A DNA stretch of 64,000 nucleotides from Terriglobia bacterium (lineage in GTDB: Bacteria; Acidobacteriota; Terriglobia; Bryobacterales; Bryobacteraceae), in the NCBI GenBank assembly GCA_020073145.1, contig JAIQFS010000010.1:62001-126000 (forward strand), in the 5' to 3' direction. The notes under the pieces are model-generated. The model did not search any database, was not told the DNA's origin, and saw nothing but the letters and a program-made list of their open reading frames with translations. Of this stretch, positions 53,337-61,905 are shown in pieces. The position numbers and the translations under genes are program-made. The first letter of the stretch is position 1. Every line of letters begins with the position of its first letter.

Positions 53337-54659
53337 CTACTCGAGTTGCTCTTGCGCGCGGGTCTCGATCCGGGGCCGCAGAAATCCGAACAGAAGCGCC
53401 AGTAAACCCGCGACGCCGACAATCAGCATCAGCCAGCGCAGGCCGTGCGCCAGCAGCGCGGCGCTCAGCGTGGGCCACTGGAAAGGAAATTGGCGGAGAC
53501 GGTCCCATCGCTCCGTCATCCAATGCCAGCCCGTGTGAGCGACCAGCGCCGAGAGAATGATCGTGCCCATGCGCTCGGCGACCGCATAGCGGAACAGGCC
53601 TTCCAGCAGCGGGATGGCCAGCAACAGCACCAGAAGTTGCCCCAGTTCGACTCCTACATTGAAAGACAACAGCGATGTCAGCAGATGCGAGCCCGCGAAC
53701 TGCAGCGTCTGCCGCAGCGCGAATGAGAAGCCGAAGCCGTGGACCAGACCGAAGCCGAAGGCAATCATCCAGCGCCGGCCGACCGTGGCGCCCCCCACAA
53801 TGTTCTCCAACGCCATGTAGAGGATGGAGGCGGCGATCAGCGTCTCGATGAGCGGAGGGAACCACAACGCATCCGGGCCGAGATCGTATGCCGAGGCGAC
53901 GAGCGTGACGGAGTGCGCCACCGTGAATGCCGTGACGATCGGGAGGAGCCCCCGAAACCGCCGGAACGGAATGACCAGGCAGAACAGAAACAGCAGATGG
54001 TCGGTGCCGCCCAGAATGTGAAAGAACCCGGACCGCACGAATCGCAGGGCGGCTTGATACCAGCGCGGATCGAGGCGGACCAGGCCGGGGTCGCCCGTAA
54101 ACTCGAAGGCGCGCACCACCCCGGTCGGTGGCAGAAAGCGGAGCACCGTGACCACGCGGAGGGCCAGCGTCGCCAGACCGGGATGGATGGAGAAATCAGA
54201 TCGAGCCGATTGAATCGGATATTCGAACCAGACATCTAGGAACGCCTGGTTCCAGAAAACATCGGTGGCATTCGGCAGGCGCGGCCCGTTGAGATGCGCC
54301 AGGGCCTGGTCGTAGGAGGCGAACGAGCGGTCGGACTCCAGGGAGACGTTCGCCTCCACCACTCGCGGCTTCGGCAAACGAACGCTGCCTTCGTCGATCT
54401 CAAGCGAGTCGGAAATCCACTGGGTTGCGGCGTCCTGCAGAAAGGCGCCGGCTCTGTCTAGATCCAGATAGCCCGGCCCGCGCTTCGGAAAATCGATGTC
54501 GCGCATGGCCTTGAGCGGCACGCGCACCAGCAGATTCAGATGTGGTCCGGCGGGTTTAACGAACGCCTGGATGGTAATGGCATTAGGGATGTCGTGGGCG
54601 GCCGCCGGAAGAAGCGCGAAGAGAAAAGCGGCGAATGCCTGCTGCAACCGGTGAGTCAT
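53337..54659 (-). CDS. HupE/UreJ-like membrane protein
   Basis: A 440-residue protein with a signal peptide, a periplasmic N-terminal half (about 25-205, beta-rich), and a C-terminal half with six or seven membrane helices. The HupE/UreJ-type block is clear: GFFHILGGTDHLLFLFCLVI (start of membrane part), then TAFTVAHSVTLVAS, and GFGLVHGFGFSFAL. The conserved His and Asp residues in these motifs may bind a metal such as nickel or zinc. Its task here is unknown. It is 18 bases after the cytochrome c gene on the same strand. Confidence 0.82.
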   Translation of the reverse strand: MTHRLQQAFAAFLFALLPAAAHDIPNAITIQAFVKPAGPHLNLLVRVPLKAMRDIDFPKRGPGYLDLDRAGAFLQDAATQWISDSLEIDEGSVRLPKPRVVEANVSLESDRSFASYDQALAHLNGPRLPNATDVFWNQAFLDVWFEYPIQSARSDFSIHPGLATLALRVVTVLRFLPPTGVVRAFEFTGDPGLVRLDPRWYQAALRFVRSGFFHILGGTDHLLFLFCLVIPFRRFRGLLPIVTAFTVAHSVTLVASAYDLGPDALWFPPLIETLIAASILYMALENIVGGATVGRRWMIAFGFGLVHGFGFSFALRQTLQFAGSHLLTSLLSFNVGVELGQLLVLLLAIPLLEGLFRYAVAERMGTIILSALVAHTGWHWMTERWDRLRQFPFQWPTLSAALLAHGLRWLMLIVGVAGLLALLFGFLRPRIETRAQEQLE

Positions 54660-54677: not shown

Positions 54678-55142
54678 CTATTTCCTTTCGTCCAGTTTAG
54701 CCGCTTCGATCCGGATCTGCTTCAGCGCTTCGGTCTGATGATCGAGCTCCTGCGGACCTGCTGGAAACTGGTTCATGCTGAGAATGTGCGCGAGGATATC
54801 GGCGTTCTTTTCGCGATTGAGACTGCCTGGGCGATCCGCGGGCATCGACCGGCGGATCCGGTCAAACAGGTCCCCCACCGTGAGACCGTTCCAGTTGGAT
54901 AAAAATTCGCCTCCCGTCAGAGCGGGCGCCATCTCGCCGCCATTCAAGGTAAGACCGTGGCATGCCGCACACTCGGTGCTGTACAGCGCTTCGCCGCGCT
55001 TGGCCTGGTCCCGGGTGTAGACGCCGTCCCAGACCGACCGTGACGTCTGAGCCAGGGCCGCCAGCGCAAGCAACCCTCCCACCGCAACGTCCTTCACAAA
55101 TGCGCGTCTAATCGTTGGGCAGACTATACGCGATGTACTCAC
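54678..55142 (-). CDS. c-type cytochrome
   Basis: A 154-residue or shorter exported cytochrome with one heme site (CAACH in ALYSTECAACHGLTLNGG) and a Met-rich region near RRSMPADRPG that may give the sixth ligand. It overlaps the 3' end of the PQQ dehydrogenase gene by 35 bases if the GTG at 55142 is used; that start has a good GGAGGAG upstream. A later GTG at 55097 would begin exactly at the signal peptide (VKDVAVGGLLALAALA). It probably takes electrons from the PQQ enzyme. Confidence 0.85.
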   Translation of the reverse strand: MSTSRIVCPTIRRAFVKDVAVGGLLALAALAQTSRSVWDGVYTRDQAKRGEALYSTECAACHGLTLNGGEMAPALTGGEFLSNWNGLTVGDLFDRIRRSMPADRPGSLNREKNADILAHILSMNQFPAGPQELDHQTEALKQIRIEAAKLDERK

Positions 55143-57186
55143 CCGAATAGGCTCCTCCGCTCACCGCCACCACGATGTACTGCTTTCCATCCACCGAATA
55201 GGTCATCGGAGAGCCGCTCTGGGGCGCCGGCATCCACACCGAGCCTACCTCTTTCCCGGTGGCCTTGTCGTAGGCCCGAAGCATCGCGCCGCGGGGATGG
55301 GACGAGGTGGTGGTGACCTGGCTATCACCCAGAATCACCAGGGTCTTGGTCACCACCAGCCCGACGCTGCCGGGCTGCCCGGTATTCGGGATGTCCTTGC
55401 CCTTGAGGGCCGGATGATTGCGGACCACGTCGGGAGTCTCCCCGTACGGCGTCTGCCACTGGATGTCTCCGCGGTCGAGATTGATCGCGGAGATCACCGC
55501 ATAGGGCGGTTTGACTATCGACAGGCCTTGCACCGTTAGCCCGCCGGCCTGGACCGCGGGCGCCGCGGCCCGAGTTGTGGCTGGGCGGCGCAGACGCTGC
55601 GGGGCATCCGCGGCCGTCCCGAATCCGGGCCCTTCGGAAACCACGAAGTCGGTGTCGCTCCTCCCCATCACGTAGCGGATGTCTGAAAACCCGTTGGGCG
55701 GCGTGCGCAACGAGATCGGGAACACCGCCGATTGGTTCGCCTGCGCATAGACGACGTGCGTCTCCGGATCGTAGCCCGCTCCCGGCCAGTTGGTGCCGCC
55801 GCTGGCGGTGCCCAACGTAAGAGCGGCCAGCATGCCCTTGGAATCGCCGACGATCGGCGGCAGAAACAGGGGGCCGGTTTTGTAGCGCGACACGTTATCG
55901 CGCGCTTGGGCCCGCATCTCGGGCGTGAAATCGATGAGGTCGTCCGGGATGTTCAGGAAATTCCGGGCGTACGCGGGCGGCTTGGTGGGAAACGGCTGCG
56001 TCGGCGACGTCTTCTCGCCCGGCACATCCGACTGCGGCACCGGCCGCTCTTCAATCGGCCAGACCGGCTCGCCGGTGACGCGATCGAAGACGTACAGGAA
56101 GGCTTCCTTGCTGGGCAGCGCCACCGCCTTGATCGCCTTCCCGCCAACATTGATATCCGCAAGAATCGGCGCCGAAGACAGATCGTAGTCCCAAACGGGA
56201 TGGTGCACGATCTGGAAATGCCACTTCCGTTTTCCGGTTTTCAAGTCGACGCACACCAGGCTTTCGGCGAACAGATTGTCTCCCGGCCGCTCGCCGCCGT
56301 AGAAATCGGAAGTGGGGGTCTCCACGGGCAGATAGACCAGGCCGACGTCTTCGTCTACGCTGATCTGGGTCCACACGCCGGTGTTGCCGTTGGTCGCCCA
56401 GGAATTGTTTTCCCAGGTCTCGTTGCCCAACTCCCCCGGCCGCGGGATGGTGTTGAACGTCCAGAGCAACTTGCCCGTCCGCACATCGAACGCGCGCACA
56501 TTCCCCTTAGTGTTGTTGTGCGTCACAACCGTCATGCCTTCTTTGAACGAGGAGCCGACAATTACCACATCCTTGACAACGGCGGGCGTGGAATGGAGGC
56601 CGGCCTCGCCCGTCTCCGGATCGATCGGCTGCCCGGTTCCGGTGACCATCCCGACCTTCAAGTCCACCATGCCGTCTTTGCCGAACCCCAGGACCGGCGT
56701 GCCGGTGTGCGCATTGAGTTCTACCAGCCGGTAGCCGGTGGTGACGAAGACGATGCGGTCGTCGCCTTTGCCGTTGGTCCAATACGAAAGGCCCCGCCCG
56801 GAGAGCTGCCGCGGAGCGATGGCCGCGCGCTGGCCTTCGCGGAAGCTGTAGACCCACCGTTGCTCGCCGGTCCTGGCATCCAAGGCAAACACGGATCGCC
56901 GCGTGCCGCCCGTCGCGTACAGCATGCCTCTCACGACCAGGGGGGTTCCTTCCAGCTTGTACTCCGGGCGGGGGCCCAGATTATCGGTCTTGAAACGCCA
57001 GGCGGGCTCGAGTTGGCTAAAGTTCGAAGCGTTGATCTGGTCTAACGGAGAATACTTGGTCCCCTTCAGATCCGCGGTATAGTGCGGCCAGTCGCCGTTG
57101 CTGGTCGACGGCTGCCCGCTGCCCTGCCCCCAAGCGGCGGCAGCCCCACAGATCAGGACCGCGGCAAAGATCATCCGAAGCATCAT
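55108..57186 (-). CDS. Exported PQQ-dependent dehydrogenase (glucose/quinate-type propeller)
   Basis: A 692-residue exported propeller protein. After the signal peptide (1-20) come DWPHYTADLKGTKYSPLDQIN, TPLVVRGMLYATGGTRRSVFALDARTGEQRW in parts, and the family-specific HHPVWDYDLSSAPIL, RPVPQSDVPGE, SPTQPFPTKPP and NIPDDLIDFTPE blocks, as in PQQ glucose/quinate/shikimate-type dehydrogenases but without their N-terminal membrane helices. It oxidises a sugar or cyclic alcohol in the periplasm. The start is one of two adjacent ATG codons (57186 or 57183) next to a GGGAGGGG. A cytochrome c gene overlaps its end. Confidence 0.9.
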   Translation of the reverse strand: MMLRMIFAAVLICGAAAAWGQGSGQPSTSNGDWPHYTADLKGTKYSPLDQINASNFSQLEPAWRFKTDNLGPRPEYKLEGTPLVVRGMLYATGGTRRSVFALDARTGEQRWVYSFREGQRAAIAPRQLSGRGLSYWTNGKGDDRIVFVTTGYRLVELNAHTGTPVLGFGKDGMVDLKVGMVTGTGQPIDPETGEAGLHSTPAVVKDVVIVGSSFKEGMTVVTHNNTKGNVRAFDVRTGKLLWTFNTIPRPGELGNETWENNSWATNGNTGVWTQISVDEDVGLVYLPVETPTSDFYGGERPGDNLFAESLVCVDLKTGKRKWHFQIVHHPVWDYDLSSAPILADINVGGKAIKAVALPSKEAFLYVFDRVTGEPVWPIEERPVPQSDVPGEKTSPTQPFPTKPPAYARNFLNIPDDLIDFTPEMRAQARDNVSRYKTGPLFLPPIVGDSKGMLAALTLGTASGGTNWPGAGYDPETHVVYAQANQSAVFPISLRTPPNGFSDIRYVMGRSDTDFVVSEGPGFGTAADAPQRLRRPATTRAAAPAVQAGGLTVQGLSIVKPPYAVISAINLDRGDIQWQTPYGETPDVVRNHPALKGKDIPNTGQPGSVGLVVTKTLVILGDSQVTTTSSHPRGAMLRAYDKATGKEVGSVWMPAPQSGSPMTYSVDGKQYIVVAVSGGAYSGEYIAYSLPND

Positions 57187-57220
57187 CCCCTCCCGGCGCA
57201 AAACGAGTGGAGCCCGGTTC

Positions 57221-58066
57221 CTAGTTCTTCCCGACCGACACCTTGACGAGGGCGTTGGTCCAACAGCATTGGAAACCGCCGCCGCCCTTGCCCGTCCAAT
57301 CGTTCGCCAATACATACAGAAGATATTCGCCCGGCTCGCTGAAGGTGGCGGTGGTGGTCGCCCGGCCCGCGAATGCCGCCGTGACATCTTCGGTCTTCTG
57401 GACTGGTGGCTTCGGAGGCGCGAACGTCACCACGCCCGGCCCGCGATATTTGCTCCACGTCAGGGTCACCGCGGGGGTTCGGGGCGCCCGCATGCCGGGA
57501 ACCAACTTGGCATCGTCGGATGCGAACACGGTCACGGTGAGCGGCTGATTCACGGTGACGGTCAGCGCGACCTGCACGGGGCGCGGGCCCTGCACGGAAG
57601 CGCCGCCTTCAAAGCGGAGCACCGGCGGCGCATTGCCGGTCGCGTCTTTCAAAGGCTCCACCTCCCAAAGCGGAGCCAGGCTGACGGGCACGGCCGTCGT
57701 CTGCCCGTTTGCGGTCAGCGTCCAAGTGAGCTTGCGATCGCCGAAATCCTTCGGCACCGTGATGGTGAACACGCCCCATTGGCGGCCCGGAAGGAAGTGC
57801 GTCGGCTGACCCTGGTCCGGCCCGCCCGGTTCGATATGGTTTTGCGGACCGATGGGGATGTCGAGTTCCTGTTGCTGGTTGCGATTGTAATAACCGAGCA
57901 GAATGCTATAGGCGCCGTCCGGATTCGCAAACCATCCTTCAAACGCCGCGGTGACACCCTGGCCCGAGTTGTGGAACGGTTCCAGCGGCAGGTTCTGCGC
58001 GGGCGCCAGAGCCGCGGCCGCAAGAACGATCACTGCACAGAGAGGTAGATCCTTCAGCCGGCGCAT
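57221..58066 (-). CDS. Exported beta-rich protein of unknown function
   Basis: A 281-residue protein with a signal peptide (1-23, ending APA). It begins NLPLEPFHNSGQGVTAAFEGWF, then YSILLGYYNRNQQQELDIPIG and HFLPGRQWGVFTITVP, and ends with a Cys-Cys pair in GGFQCCWTNALVKVSVGKN. The segments look like two Ig-type or PKD-type beta domains. I do not recognise a named family, though similar sequences accompany PQQ and cytochrome genes in acidobacteria. It lies between the PQQ gene and the cytochrome-monooxygenase gene on the same strand with gaps of 34 and 6 bases, so all three are likely one operon. Confidence 0.65.
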   Translation of the reverse strand: MRRLKDLPLCAVIVLAAAALAPAQNLPLEPFHNSGQGVTAAFEGWFANPDGAYSILLGYYNRNQQQELDIPIGPQNHIEPGGPDQGQPTHFLPGRQWGVFTITVPKDFGDRKLTWTLTANGQTTAVPVSLAPLWEVEPLKDATGNAPPVLRFEGGASVQGPRPVQVALTVTVNQPLTVTVFASDDAKLVPGMRAPRTPAVTLTWSKYRGPGVVTFAPPKPPVQKTEDVTAAFAGRATTTATFSEPGEYLLYVLANDWTGKGGGGFQCCWTNALVKVSVGKN

Positions 58067-58072
58067 CGACGC

Positions 58073-59416
58073 TTACTGGACCGCGAGGGCCGCAACCGCC
58101 GGCCTGGGCCGATGCTGCTCCTGCCATTGCTTGTAGTCGTCCTCGCTGAGGTACGTCACATTGACCCACGCATGCGCCATTTCATCGACGGTGCGGTCAC
58201 CCCAGCCGACCCATTGGTTCGGATCCGGATTGTTGCGGTTGGCCGCGGTGTTGTCGTGCCATGCGGTAATGTGGAGCACCGTGCCTTTCGGCAACACCGG
58301 CGCGGCGTCGTCAGCGTAGATGTAGTTGATCATCCAGTTGAAGTTGAAATGATCGACGTAGCTCAACGTCTGCCTGCGGCCATCCGGCAGAATGGCTTCC
58401 AGCGCCATCGCTTTGCCGCGCAGGTGCATGTGAGGCTGGAAATTCTCCAGCCGCGCCGCCTGCCGGAGCATGAAGAAACCTTGCGTCTCGGCGATCGTGT
58501 TCGGAGCGATATCCAGAACCGCGCCGCCATCGGCCGTCGGCGTCGCATTGAAAATCATCAGGCGCGTCCGGTATTTCGGCTCCTCGCCCTTGGGATAAAG
58601 GTACACGCCCAGTTCGGCGTGATCGCGAATCTGCTCTCCGACGGCGTGCAGATGAAGTTCCCACCAAATGTTCGCGCCCGGTAGCAGCAGCTTGCCGGCA
58701 TTGTTCCGATAGACATCGTAGTTCTTCCCGATCGCCCATTCCATGAGAAGGCCGGGGCCGACGTTTGCGACATCTTCAGCATTGGTGACCGGTTCGTCCT
58801 GCTGGAGGCGCGCCAGCACGTGATGCATGATCTTGCGCCCCGCGGGAGTCCCGGGACGGATCTCTACCGCCCGCACCCAGCGCGGCTCCGTAATCGGAAT
58901 CGCCGTGAGCGGCTTGAACCAGACATCCTGGCCGTGCGCCGGCATGGTGTAGTCTTCGGACTTCAACACCAGATCCGGCTGCCCGAATTGCTTGGCCAAC
59001 TGCCAGCCATCGTAGCTCGGCCACTCTTTCGCGGGAGGCATATCCTTGGGGTCGCCCATCGGAGCGCCCGTATCGACCCATCGCACAATGGTGGCGATCT
59101 GGTCGTCGGAGAGCGAAATGTCGTTCTGAAAATGCTGGATACCGACGGTCTTGTCGAGGTGCCACGGCGGCATCTGGCGGGTGAGCACGCGCTCGCGAAT
59201 GGCTTTCGCCCAGGGACGCGTCTCCTGGTAGGTCATCAAGGACATCGGCGCCATGGAACCTTTGCGGTGGCACTCCTGGCACTTGGCTTGAAAGATGGGA
59301 GCCACATCCCTGGTGAACGTGACTGGTTTTTCGGATAAAGCCGCCGCCATCGAACACCCCGCGGCGATCATCAAACCACCTAAAACCGGGACCGCTACCC
59401 TCACTATTCCCCTCAT
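58073..59416 (-). CDS. Cytochrome c fused to PHM-like copper type II monooxygenase domain
   Basis: A 447-residue exported protein. After a signal with possible lipobox (IAAGC), the cytochrome part has one heme motif CQECH (46-50), MAPMSLMTY and RQMPPWH. The C-terminal half (about 190-440) has the His layout of the PHM/DBH copper monooxygenase superfamily: MHHVLA (about 195), HLHAVG (about 254) and HMHLRGKAM (about 328), and a final TAWHDNT stretch. PHM hydroxylates using two separated copper sites and an ascorbate-type donor; here the fused cytochrome could supply electrons. Substrate unknown. A GGAGAGGAG lies before ATG 59416. Confidence 0.8.
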   Translation of the reverse strand: MRGIVRVAVPVLGGLMIAAGCSMAAALSEKPVTFTRDVAPIFQAKCQECHRKGSMAPMSLMTYQETRPWAKAIRERVLTRQMPPWHLDKTVGIQHFQNDISLSDDQIATIVRWVDTGAPMGDPKDMPPAKEWPSYDGWQLAKQFGQPDLVLKSEDYTMPAHGQDVWFKPLTAIPITEPRWVRAVEIRPGTPAGRKIMHHVLARLQQDEPVTNAEDVANVGPGLLMEWAIGKNYDVYRNNAGKLLLPGANIWWELHLHAVGEQIRDHAELGVYLYPKGEEPKYRTRLMIFNATPTADGGAVLDIAPNTIAETQGFFMLRQAARLENFQPHMHLRGKAMALEAILPDGRRQTLSYVDHFNFNWMINYIYADDAAPVLPKGTVLHITAWHDNTAANRNNPDPNQWVGWGDRTVDEMAHAWVNVTYLSEDDYKQWQEQHRPRPAVAALAVQ

Positions 59417-59482
59417 GATCCGCTCCTCTCCGACTTCGGCCAGTTTACCTGTCAAGCGGTAGGTTGTCAATCCCCGGGGCGG

Positions 59483-60763
59483 CTAGGAATGTTTGGGCCA
59501 GACCACCCCTTGATCCTGCTTCGTCACCGTTCCGATTCCTCTGTAGACAAACTTTTGGACGCGCTGCCCGCGATAGGTTTCGGTGGTATAGATATTGCCC
59601 TTCGCATCGGTGGCGATGCTATGGACCGCATAGAATTGCCCGGGTTGCCGCCCCCCGTCCCCGAAGCTGGTCAACACCTGAAGCGAGTCTCGGTCGAGGA
59701 CATGGATCTTCTCGTTCGAGCCATCCGCCAGGTAGATGTACTTCTGTTGCGGATCCTTGGAGAACGCGATGTCCCAGACAGAGCCGTCGCCCAGAGTGTT
59801 CTTGTAGAGGATCTGCTCTTTGACGAAGGTCCCATCCGGCCGGAACACCTGAATGCGGTCATTGACGCGATCGCAGACGTAGAGCAAGCCGTCGTTGGCA
59901 AGTTGGGCGCAGTGCACGGGATTGCGGAACTGCTGCGCCGGCGGATCGTTCGGATTGTACCGGCCGAGCGGCGTGTCGTCGGGCTTGTGGCCATAGGCGC
60001 CCCAATGCCGCTTGTACTTGCCGGTGTTGGCGTCAAACACGATCACGCGATGATTCCCGTAGCCGTCGGCAACGTATAACTCGTCGGTCTTCGGATCGAC
60101 ATAAAGTTTGGCCGGGCCCTTCAGGTTCTCGAGATCGTTGCTGCCTTTGCTCTGCCCCGGCTTGCCGATCTGCATGAGAAACTTACCGGACTGGGTGAAC
60201 TTGAGGACCATGTTGTCGTTGTAGTAGCCGGGCGGCGTGTTCTGGCTTTCGGGCGCGGCGGCACCGCGTCCGGCGGCGTTCTGTCCCGGGCGCGGACGGC
60301 CGTTGCCGCCGATCCAGACGTTGCCCTTGTAATCGACGAAGACTCCGTGGTTGGTCTCGGGCCAATCGTAGCCTTCGCCCGGCCCGCCCCAGGAGCCGAT
60401 GAGGTTGCCCTCCTGATCGAACTCGAGAACCGGCGGGGCCGGCGCGCAGCATTCGGCCTCGACCACGCCCGCCTGCCGCTTGGGGCCCGGCGGGTTGGGC
60501 GCCGCATATTCTTCCATGGCCTCGAGCGAAGCCTGACGGTGAATGATCCAGATGTGATCCTGGCCATCGACCGCGACGCCGATCGCGTTGCCGATGACCC
60601 AGTGGTTGGGCAGCGGCTTGGGCCACAGCGGGTCCACTTCAAAGCGCGGCGCTTGCATGCCGGCGGCTTCGACGGAGGCCCTTTTTTCGACCAGGATGGA
60701 CGCGATGCCGAGCACGATCACCAAGCCCAGCCAGAGGACACCGAGGGATCGTCTGCGCTTCAT
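59483..60763 (-). CDS. Exported NHL-repeat beta-propeller protein
   Basis: A 426-residue protein with an N-terminal signal or anchor helix (7-25), then NHL-like blades: HWVIGNAIGVAVDGQDHIWIIHR, TNHGVFVDYKGNVWIGGNG, KGPAKLYVDPKTDELYVADGYGNHRV, RNPVHCAQLANDGLLYVCDRVNDRIQVF and VHSIATDAKGNIYTTET (each in parts). An insert with ECCAP lies between blades one and two. Proteins of this kind resemble peptidylglycine lyase in fold but no catalytic residue set is clear. It is 67 bases before the cytochrome-monooxygenase gene on the same strand and divergent from the PAL-like gene. Confidence 0.78.
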   Translation of the reverse strand: MKRRRSLGVLWLGLVIVLGIASILVEKRASVEAAGMQAPRFEVDPLWPKPLPNHWVIGNAIGVAVDGQDHIWIIHRQASLEAMEEYAAPNPPGPKRQAGVVEAECCAPAPPVLEFDQEGNLIGSWGGPGEGYDWPETNHGVFVDYKGNVWIGGNGRPRPGQNAAGRGAAAPESQNTPPGYYNDNMVLKFTQSGKFLMQIGKPGQSKGSNDLENLKGPAKLYVDPKTDELYVADGYGNHRVIVFDANTGKYKRHWGAYGHKPDDTPLGRYNPNDPPAQQFRNPVHCAQLANDGLLYVCDRVNDRIQVFRPDGTFVKEQILYKNTLGDGSVWDIAFSKDPQQKYIYLADGSNEKIHVLDRDSLQVLTSFGDGGRQPGQFYAVHSIATDAKGNIYTTETYRGQRVQKFVYRGIGTVTKQDQGVVWPKHS

Positions 60764-60894
60764 CAATTCCCCTCCACGGTTCAGGTGAGTATACATCAGC
60801 AAGCAGACCGACGCAAAGAATTCCGCGTTGGATTTCCTGCCGATCGACCGGTCGCCGTGGTGTAAGATAAATCGCTGGCGAACAGGAGAGTGTC

Positions 60895-61905
60895 ATGCTC
60901 AATCTGCTGAGATTGCTCATCGCGGTCGCCGTGCTGTCCGGGGCCAGCACGCAAGCGCAGCCGAATCCGTATCGCACCGTCGAAAATTGGTTCTGGCTTC
61001 CCGAGGGCCGGACCTGGGGGTCGACCAGCGCGGTGGACATCGATCGCGACGGCACCAGCATTTGGGTCGCCGAACGCTGCGGCGCCAACTCCTGCGCGGG
61101 CAAAACCGATCCGCCGATTCTCAAATTCGACGCATCCGGAAAACTGGTGACCAGCTTTGGATCCGGCCTGTTCCTTTTTCCGCACGGCATCTCGGTGGAC
61201 CCAGACGGCAACGTCTGGATCACCGACGGTCAAGGCCGGGACGGCAAAGGACACCAAGTCTTTAAATTCAGTCCGGACGGAAAGGTGCTGATGACGCTCG
61301 GCAAGGCGGGCGTCGCCGGTGACGGACCGGATACGTTCAACCAGCCCGACGACGTCGCCATCTCTCCCAACGGCGATATCTTCGTGTCCGACGGCCACAC
61401 GCCGGGAATGGGCAATGCCCGGGTAGTCAAGTTGTCCAAGGACGGAAAGTTTATTAAGCAGTGGGGCAAGCATGGATCCGGGCCGGGGGAGTTTGAAGTT
61501 CCGCACGCGCTGGCGTTCGATTCCCGAGGGCGGCTGTTTGTGGGAGATCGAGCCAACAACCGCATTCAGATCTTCGATCAGGACGGCGCCTACCTCGACC
61601 AGTGGAAACAATTCAGCCGGCCGAGCGGGATCTACATCGACAAGAACGATGTGATCTACGTGACCGACTCCGAGTCGACGGGCAAGCCGGGGTACGGATA
61701 CAACCCCGGCTGGAGGCGCGGGATTCGAATCGGCAGCGCCAAGGATGGCTCGGTAACGGCGTTCATTCCCGACCCGCTCGCGCCCGACGCCGATGGCAAG
61801 CTGCCCGCGACGAGTATTTCCGAAGGCGTGGCGGCAGACGCGCAAGGGAATATTTTCGGCGCCGAGGTGGGGGCCAAAGGCGTCAAGAAATACGTCAGGC
61901 GGTGA
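60895..61905 (+). CDS. PAL-like NHL propeller (peptidyl-hydroxyglycine lyase relative)
   Basis: A 336-residue exported propeller. Several blades closely resemble the PAL domain of peptide-amidating enzyme: FLFPHGISVDPDGNVWITDG (His97), FNQPDDVAISPNGDIFVSDG, and FEVPHALAFDSRGRLFVGDRANNRIQIF in parts (His204). PAL uses three such His ligands for zinc and a Tyr in the SDGY segment; here the third PH is RPSG (Ser244) and the Tyr place reads SDGH (His168). It is therefore a relative with an altered site. Disulfide-like Cys62 and Cys67 are present. It is divergent from the 59483-60763 propeller and near the PHM-like gene. Confidence 0.78.
   Translation: MLNLLRLLIAVAVLSGASTQAQPNPYRTVENWFWLPEGRTWGSTSAVDIDRDGTSIWVAERCGANSCAGKTDPPILKFDASGKLVTSFGSGLFLFPHGISVDPDGNVWITDGQGRDGKGHQVFKFSPDGKVLMTLGKAGVAGDGPDTFNQPDDVAISPNGDIFVSDGHTPGMGNARVVKLSKDGKFIKQWGKHGSGPGEFEVPHALAFDSRGRLFVGDRANNRIQIFDQDGAYLDQWKQFSRPSGIYIDKNDVIYVTDSESTGKPGYGYNPGWRRGIRIGSAKDGSVTAFIPDPLAPDADGKLPATSISEGVAADAQGNIFGAEVGAKGVKKYVRR

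Follow-up and report, generated by a model that had tools for sequence, protein, structure and literature searches.

The 64,000-nucleotide window analysed here was obtained from a soil Acidobacteriota bacterium (assembly GCA_020073145.1, contig JAIQFS010000010.1, positions 62,001 to 126,000), and it contains a gene for a putative copper monooxygenase. In this protein, a cytochrome c domain is fused to a module resembling peptidylglycine alpha-hydroxylating monooxygenase (PHM) and dopamine beta-hydroxylase (DBH). The gene is followed on the same strand by an unannotated gene, designated as U281, and then by genes for a pyrroloquinoline quinone (PQQ)-type dehydrogenase, a small cytochrome c, and a HupE/UreJ-type membrane protein (Table 1). 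The initial annotation of this region had placed three open reading frames (ORFs) here, encoding the cytochrome c-PHM protein, a propeller similar to the lyase PAL, and another NHL propeller; all three were checked and are present. The steady partner of the monooxygenase is U281, which that annotation did not name. Loci and genomes are referred to by L and G numbers where they need to be told apart.

Table 1. Features of the monooxygenase locus, in window positions.
Feature	Position	Strand	Basis
Cytochrome c domain fused to predicted PHM/DBH-type two-copper monooxygenase	58073..59470	-	465-codon ORF; ligand and haem-motif conservation, predicted model, fold match
Haem c attachment motif CQECH, monooxygenase residues 64-68	59267..59281	-	C64, C67, H68 conserved in 90/90 rows
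H216-H217, counterpart of PHM H107-H108 (putative CuH ligands)	58820..58825	-	89/90 and 90/90 rows; residue order and aligned range
H273, counterpart of PHM H172 (putative CuH ligand)	58652..58654	-	90/90 rows
H347-M-H349, counterpart of PHM H242/H244 (putative CuM ligands)	58424..58432	-	89/90 rows each
M431, counterpart of PHM M314 (putative CuM ligand)	58178..58180	-	89/90 rows
U281, unannotated partner gene	57221..58066	-	Linkage counts, predicted model, natural fusion
PQQ-type quinoprotein dehydrogenase ORF, likely start 57186	55108..57387	-	PF01011, 598 bits
Small c-type cytochrome, after the dehydrogenase	54678..55142	-	Pfam scan, gene order
HupE/UreJ-type membrane protein, usual neighbour of the second propeller	53337..54659	-	Pfam scan
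Second NHL propeller	59483..60802	-	Upstream of the monooxygenase ORF, same strand
PAL-like NHL propeller	60895..61905	+	Sequence match to rat PAL; divergent from the monooxygenase operon

The predicted haem-fused copper monooxygenase

The PHM-like nature of the window monooxygenase was not recognized by Pfam, which found only a weak cytochrome c domain (PF13442, 23.2 bits, below the cut-off of 27). PF13442 matched 86 of 90 aligned monooxygenases at E <= 0.01. PF03712 did not match the window protein and reached E <= 0.01 in three of the 90 rows; a paralogue from the same genome (L001), 34.6% identical to the window protein over 457 residues, scored 24.9 bits against PF03712 in the genome search, and 22.8 as a protein against the cut-off of 23. 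A sequence search of the PDB gave no match, and thus no PHM, and a profile search of the PDB returned two cytochromes and two chance matches, again no PHM.

The similarity was indicated through the predicted structure (mean predicted local distance difference test score, pLDDT, 87.5; input of 90 aligned sequences). With this model as a query, Foldseek placed human DBH at the top (E 1.2e-11) and rat PHM second (E 2.2e-10). In VIA-align, DBH was aligned with Z 21.5 (295 aligned residues, root-mean-square deviation 3.7 A), and the listed PHM entries spanned Z 16.6 to 21.0, the best being the H108A mutant with citrate (Z 21.0, 242 aligned, 2.8 A) and the copper-bound wild-type entries reaching up to Z 19.8 (3mib, 1sdw). 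The next fold was of the PNGase type (Z 9.2), and the model fits the two-domain fold of DBH and PHM better than every other listed fold. The comparison of a predicted structure with rat PHM, suggested in the initial annotation, came out in favor of a PHM-like domain.

The CuH ligands of PHM are given as H107, H108, and H172 in PMC6123673, which mentions H242, H244, and M314 in relation to the other copper site, CuM. Their counterparts in the window protein (Table 1) were assigned from residue order and the structurally aligned range. H216, H217, H273, H347, H349, and M431 are all kept in 33 of 33 sequences of the first alignment, and in the larger alignment each position is conserved in 89 or 90 of 90 rows. 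The six ligands and the haem motif occur together in 89 of 90 sequences, and the losses are confined to one degenerate paralogue (L107:14734-15750). The family shows the ligand pattern of the PHM/DBH superfamily, His-His plus His for CuH and His-X-His plus Met for CuM. C64, C67, H68, and M100 are invariant in all 90 rows, which corresponds to the CXXCH motif and axial Met of c-type cytochromes; M100, in the sequence MPPW, is presumably the axial haem ligand of the fused domain.

By its predicted model, the protein is a cytochrome c domain joined to a two-copper monooxygenase of the PHM/DBH type, and the fusion proposed in the initial annotation is borne out by the fold match and the conserved residues. 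The start given earlier (59416) corresponds to Met19 of the 465-codon ORF and is likely the true start. Judged by eye, the N-terminus carries a likely export signal. The earlier idea of a periplasmic copper monooxygenase fed by a cytochrome is supported to the extent that the protein is probably periplasmic and its own cytochrome c domain is a plausible feed.

The partner gene U281

The linkage of U281 was examined in 80 monooxygenase loci, the best of at least 557 confirmed candidates by similarity to the window protein, with several loci sharing a genome. The record titles point to Acidobacteriota in every case but one, which is titled Bordetella parapertussis (L108, CALQCC020000001.1); this record carries an Acidobacteriota-type cluster, and the name looks wrong. 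U281 lies within 600 bases of the monooxygenase on the same strand in 72 of the 80 loci, and it is downstream in 67 of the 76 whose sequence extends 1 kb in that direction. A search for U281 in 61 relatives gave 29 matches in nine genomes. By eye, all 27 strong matches (E < 1e-40), some of which cover only part of the model, are within 264 bases of a same-strand monooxygenase match; the remaining two (G030:C12, and G001:C5 at a contig edge) are both short and weak.

Across the phylum, U281 was found in 31 of 297 genomes. The neighbourhood was followed for 97 matches in 24 other genomes, a set without G000 and G028 (covered by the search of 61 relatives), a further five genomes, and seven C-terminal-only pieces, one of which (G272:C18) is not clearly part of a listed gene. 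A monooxygenase lies within 700 bases of 68 of them among the matches listed, and direct inspection of the remaining 29 revealed 25 more, 93 of 97 in total. Ninety of these 93 neighbours are on the same strand and three are opposite (L171 convergent; L191 and L192 divergent). The four matches without a neighbour (L173, L174, L193, and L197) all have a contig end no more than about 1.2 kb away. Some genomes have at least eight U281 genes; these copy numbers are lower bounds, as eight candidates were scored per genome, and some matches are two pieces of one gene. Neither the monooxygenase nor U281 was matched in the plasmid collection. In the family f53, U281 matches in its first domain only, yet it adjoins a monooxygenase in the six genomes compared; this short form (L167-L170 and L172) has 190 to 205 codons in three of five open frames.

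In a FastTree phylogeny of 139 monooxygenases, the U281-linked proteins group together in a single clade (support 100; 112 rows, of which 104 are linked and 8 are not), and the remaining 27 rows include 1 linked protein and 26 without U281. The linkage label changes 9 times on the tree, against a mean of 30.6 for shuffled labels. FastTree was the only method used and gave long-branch warnings, 10 rows with unclear room were dropped, and many rows had been fetched because they carry U281; L171 was counted as unlinked despite its convergent U281, and the partial copy L179, outside the clade, was counted as linked. At L202, the monooxygenase and U281 are naturally fused in one open frame of 791 codons, with no second export signal at the junction.

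The predicted model of U281 (pLDDT 89.4) is all-beta, with two sandwich-like domains, and a putative export signal was recognized by eye. The fold search returned only common Ig-like or PKD-like sandwiches, the best being 2yhg (Z 11.0, 109 aligned, 2.6 A). It mostly probed the second domain (residues 143-281), and because the first domain was barely covered, no new fold is claimed. The second domain is Ig/PKD-like by the fold search; against the PKD models, the window U281 scores 13.4 bits, below the cut-off of 23.5, and a distant copy (L171) scores 33.6 bits on PF22352 (cut-off 27). The first, N-terminal domain has no Pfam match over the cut-off, and it holds most of the residues kept in 36 distant copies, for example G44, D50, G51, N63, G73, N76, Q87, P88, F91, and W115 in 35 or 36 of them. 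A vicinal Cys pair, C267-C268, is present in 70 of 71 close copies. No catalytic or metal motif stands out, which favors a binding or structural subunit.

Two other gene families recur within 6 kb of the monooxygenase-U281 pairs (L118, L092, and others): a secreted family with the motif PWGDPDIQGTY in 13 loci, and TonB-type receptors with a carboxypeptidase-like domain, named by eye, in 13 loci.

Propellers and the PQQ dehydrogenase

The initial annotation had combined the PHM-like and PAL-like proteins into a two-step system of hydroxylation and cleavage. Of 47 monooxygenase loci for which the 5 kb flanks together offered 8 kb or more of sequence, five have a PAL-like match within 5 kb; three of these are close relatives (60-71% identity; L062, L064, and L082), two are generic NHL matches (33-34%), and at L069 the PAL-like gene is 7.9 kb away. 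Conversely, a monooxygenase adjoins the PAL-like gene in two of 15 other PAL-like loci; both are convergent (L144 and L146). These 15 were hand-picked among the highest-ranking PAL-like matches, with a single locus for each genome and without the window or additional copies from a genome already represented. The genes are apart in 42 of 47 and 13 of 15 loci, so the proposed system did not hold up, nor did the conservation of the pair across genomes on which it was to be judged. PHM and PAL-like as a kept gene pair was rejected on this linkage. Neither form of PAM, with PHM and PAL in one protein or as a kept gene pair, was found, and nothing supports peptide amidation, which had already been called doubtful. 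The PAL-like propeller is most likely a neighbour of the enzyme and not its second half.

Two genomes of the genus have a PAL-like gene convergent with a different monooxygenase paralogue (G000:C41:73770-76161 at L144, and G003:C25 at L146), and no U281 was found near this paralogue. L171, outside the 47-locus sample, belongs to another family (genome G318) and has U281, a monooxygenase, two PAL-like genes, and a HupE/UreJ-type gene within about 7 kb. There, a close PAL-like gene (61.6% identity, about 2 kb away) and the HupE/UreJ-type gene are 2 to 3 kb from the U281-linked monooxygenase, and this arrangement suggests that the association of PAL-like and monooxygenase genes, though not kept, may exceed chance.

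In the sequence search, the PAL-like propeller matched rat PAL (3fvz) with E 6.3e-32. NHL proteins that are not lyases score better (fly Thin, 2.1e-41, and also TRIM71), and NHL repeats thus explain much of the score. The catalytic Tyr of PAL is the Tyr of its SDGY motif, and the third zinc His of PAL is in the last blade. The two PH motifs of the window protein (H97 and H204) align with those of PAL, and both His are present in 20 of 20 rows; His168, His in 20 of 20 rows as well, occupies the position of the SDGY Tyr. These two points of the initial annotation are confirmed by alignment, and its third, Ser in place of the third zinc His, comes from a hand alignment of the last blade, before which the main HMMER alignment ends. 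R61, H97, H168, H204, D218, R219, and E310 are invariant in the 20 rows, window included, which is consistent with a constant site unlike that of PAL. From its sequence, the protein is a PAL-like propeller without the PAL catalytic Tyr.

The second NHL propeller was considered as a monooxygenase partner and ruled out: it is within 5 kb in five of 47 monooxygenase loci, and among 14 other second-propeller loci none has a monooxygenase neighbour. At G003:C238 (L056), outside the 14, it adjoins a monooxygenase gene. Eight of the 14 have a HupE/UreJ-type gene, and this membrane protein and the second propeller are paired repeatedly in other genomes; in the window, the monooxygenase operon sits between the two. 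An adjacent Cys pair is kept among close relatives of the second propeller (C118-C119), as it is in U281.

The order monooxygenase, U281, PQQ dehydrogenase, and cytochrome c is found in the window and in seven of 80 other loci, which allows for a local electron circuit, though not as a general feature. A small cytochrome c lies within 5 kb of the monooxygenase in five of 47 loci. The genome of the window has 72 matched pieces of PQQ-type quinoproteins. Electron transfer of this kind has precedents among lytic polysaccharide monooxygenases (LPMOs): a c-type cytochrome is reported to reduce LPMOs in PMC8981238, and a PQQ dehydrogenase to drive LPMOs via its cytochrome domain in PMC5960967.

Proposed enzyme and comparison with known systems

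It is probable that the locus encodes an exported, haem-fed copper hydroxylase of the PHM/DBH type, with U281 as its subunit and the PAL-like propeller outside the enzyme. The first product would combine the cytochrome c domain with a PHM/DBH-type module containing CuH (H216, H217, and H273) and CuM (H347, H349, and M431), and U281 would bind this chain as a two-domain beta-sandwich subunit, probably non-catalytic. The fused haem would take up electrons one by one and hand them to the coppers, replacing ascorbate, a route that is plausible from the LPMO precedents. Homology with PHM and DBH predicts that the copper module uses O2 and two electrons to hydroxylate a C-H bond; O2 would be activated at CuM, and the substrate would be a small periplasmic molecule. 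In the subclade of the window, the downstream PQQ-type dehydrogenase and small cytochrome c may oxidize the alcohol product or another alcohol, and the electrons may return to the haem.

Several points weigh against this proposal. The fold assignment is a prediction. U281 is not beside eight of the 80 monooxygenases (one of them cut by a contig end), and it is missing from 26 of the 27 rows sampled from other clades; the fold therefore does not need U281. Operon mates can travel together without contact, and the fusion with U281 is a single case from one assembled genome. Only 13 of 47 loci have the PQQ dehydrogenase within 5 kb. In the genome of the window, pqqC was not matched by a search that matched nowhere, controls included, and PqqE reached 121.5 bits against a cut-off of 381, which was exceeded in three of 31 genomes searched. 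As clear PQQ synthesis genes are lacking in this genome, PQQ would need to be imported; its quinoproteins either use imported PQQ or are PQQ-free.

Other explanations were weighed on the same evidence. U281 could instead serve as a metallochaperone or in maturation, delivering copper to the monooxygenase without being one of its permanent subunits. The caddie protein of tyrosinase, a small protein loading copper, is an analogy, and the strict linkage and the Cys pair in close copies would suit such a role. The pair is, however, not seen at the ends of the 12 distant copies shown (two of them cut short), though distant copies are equally linked, no conserved His- or Met-rich metal motif is present, and the fused copy retains both domains in one chain; a chaperone is considered unlikely. 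Another reading is a redox-neutral cycle, in which the PQQ dehydrogenase oxidizes the hydroxylated product, its two electrons feed the next hydroxylation via cytochromes, and U281 docks both enzymes. The stoichiometry, the gene order in the window and seven of the 80 other loci, and the coupling of a PQQ dehydrogenase to LPMOs (PMC5960967) agree with such a cycle, but 34 of 47 loci have no PQQ dehydrogenase within 5 kb, and the genome has many quinoprotein genes (the 72 pieces) without clear PQQ synthesis, and the cycle is regarded as doubtful.

The PAL-like propeller could still act as a C-N or C-O lyase on a product hydroxylated by the PHM-like protein. Its sequence is related to PAL, two zinc His are kept in all 20 relatives, the PAL-like gene at L171 is about 2 kb away, and close relatives are within 5 kb in three of 47 loci against about 0.4 expected (our own estimate, from five copies per 6.3 Mb). 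The excess is slight, several of the loci behind it are related to each other, the pair is not kept in either direction (five of 47 and two of 15 loci), the two genes are on opposite strands in the window, and the catalytic Tyr is replaced by His, all of which make a joint pathway highly improbable. Least likely of all is a PHM-like domain without catalysis, working as a sensor or binding module for copper or redox state. No substrate has been assigned, and paralogues are very numerous (15 matches in the window's own genome, 30 in one relative), as might suit a sensor; two complete catalytic copper sites would not be expected in one, and of the 90 rows all except a degenerate copy retain these sites together with the haem motif, as do 33 of 33 in the first alignment. 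A copper hydroxylase with U281 as its subunit remains the preferred reading.

More broadly, but tentatively, these proteins may represent an as yet unrecognized Acidobacteriota class of two-subunit PHM-type copper hydroxylases, each made of a self-contained cytochrome c-PHM chain and an obligate U281, with at least eight U281 genes in some genomes; electrons from the respiratory chain or from quinoproteins would replace ascorbate, and the substrates would be many periplasmic compounds in soil. The high copy number per genome suggests that soil Acidobacteriota have an unassigned capacity for oxidation. With its own haem and the six-ligand pattern of PHM and DBH, a bacterial family of this size would be a simpler system in which to ask how electrons arrive at and cross between distant coppers, and it bears on the origin of the animal PHM/DBH enzymes. 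Through the U281 gene, an unannotated protein family becomes accessible to experiment.

Table 3 of a 2020 metalloproteome review lists PHM and DBH in the eukaryote column only (PMC7435645). Some of the bacterial monooxygenase paralogues are already flagged by Pfam. No description of a haem-fused bacterial PHM-type enzyme was found in the open-licence literature by titles and starts of abstracts, which is weak evidence of absence.

The window monooxygenase shares with the PHM half of PAM the two-domain fold and the six copper ligands in the same order, and differs in its low identity (13-14%), its built-in cytochrome c, the lack of a kept PAL, its U281 partner, and its bacterial host. DBH is the best fold match, and both proteins have an extra N-terminal domain ahead of the copper module; this is a DOMON domain in DBH and a cytochrome c in the window protein, and the window protein is not known to use ascorbate. 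The window propeller resembles the PAL half of PAM (3fvz) as an NHL protein with two zinc-type PH motifs, and differs in the Tyr-to-His replacement, the apparent Ser at the third zinc His, and the absence of a monooxygenase neighbour in 13 of 15 loci. LPMOs are mononuclear copper enzymes with another fold than PHM. In the LPMO system of Cellvibrio japonicus (Cbp2D/CjX183), as described in PMC8981238, a c-type haem likewise feeds a copper monooxygenase, whereas in the window protein haem and copper module form one chain. The PQQ pyranose dehydrogenase CcPDH of Coprinopsis cinerea, strongly coupled through a cytochrome to a copper monooxygenase according to PMC5960967, shows the same succession of components, but it is fungal and its cytochrome is fused to the dehydrogenase, and in the window the link is gene order alone. 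Set against these systems, the window enzyme is judged to be a divergent bacterial representative of the PHM type that carries its own haem domain and has a protein partner dedicated to it.

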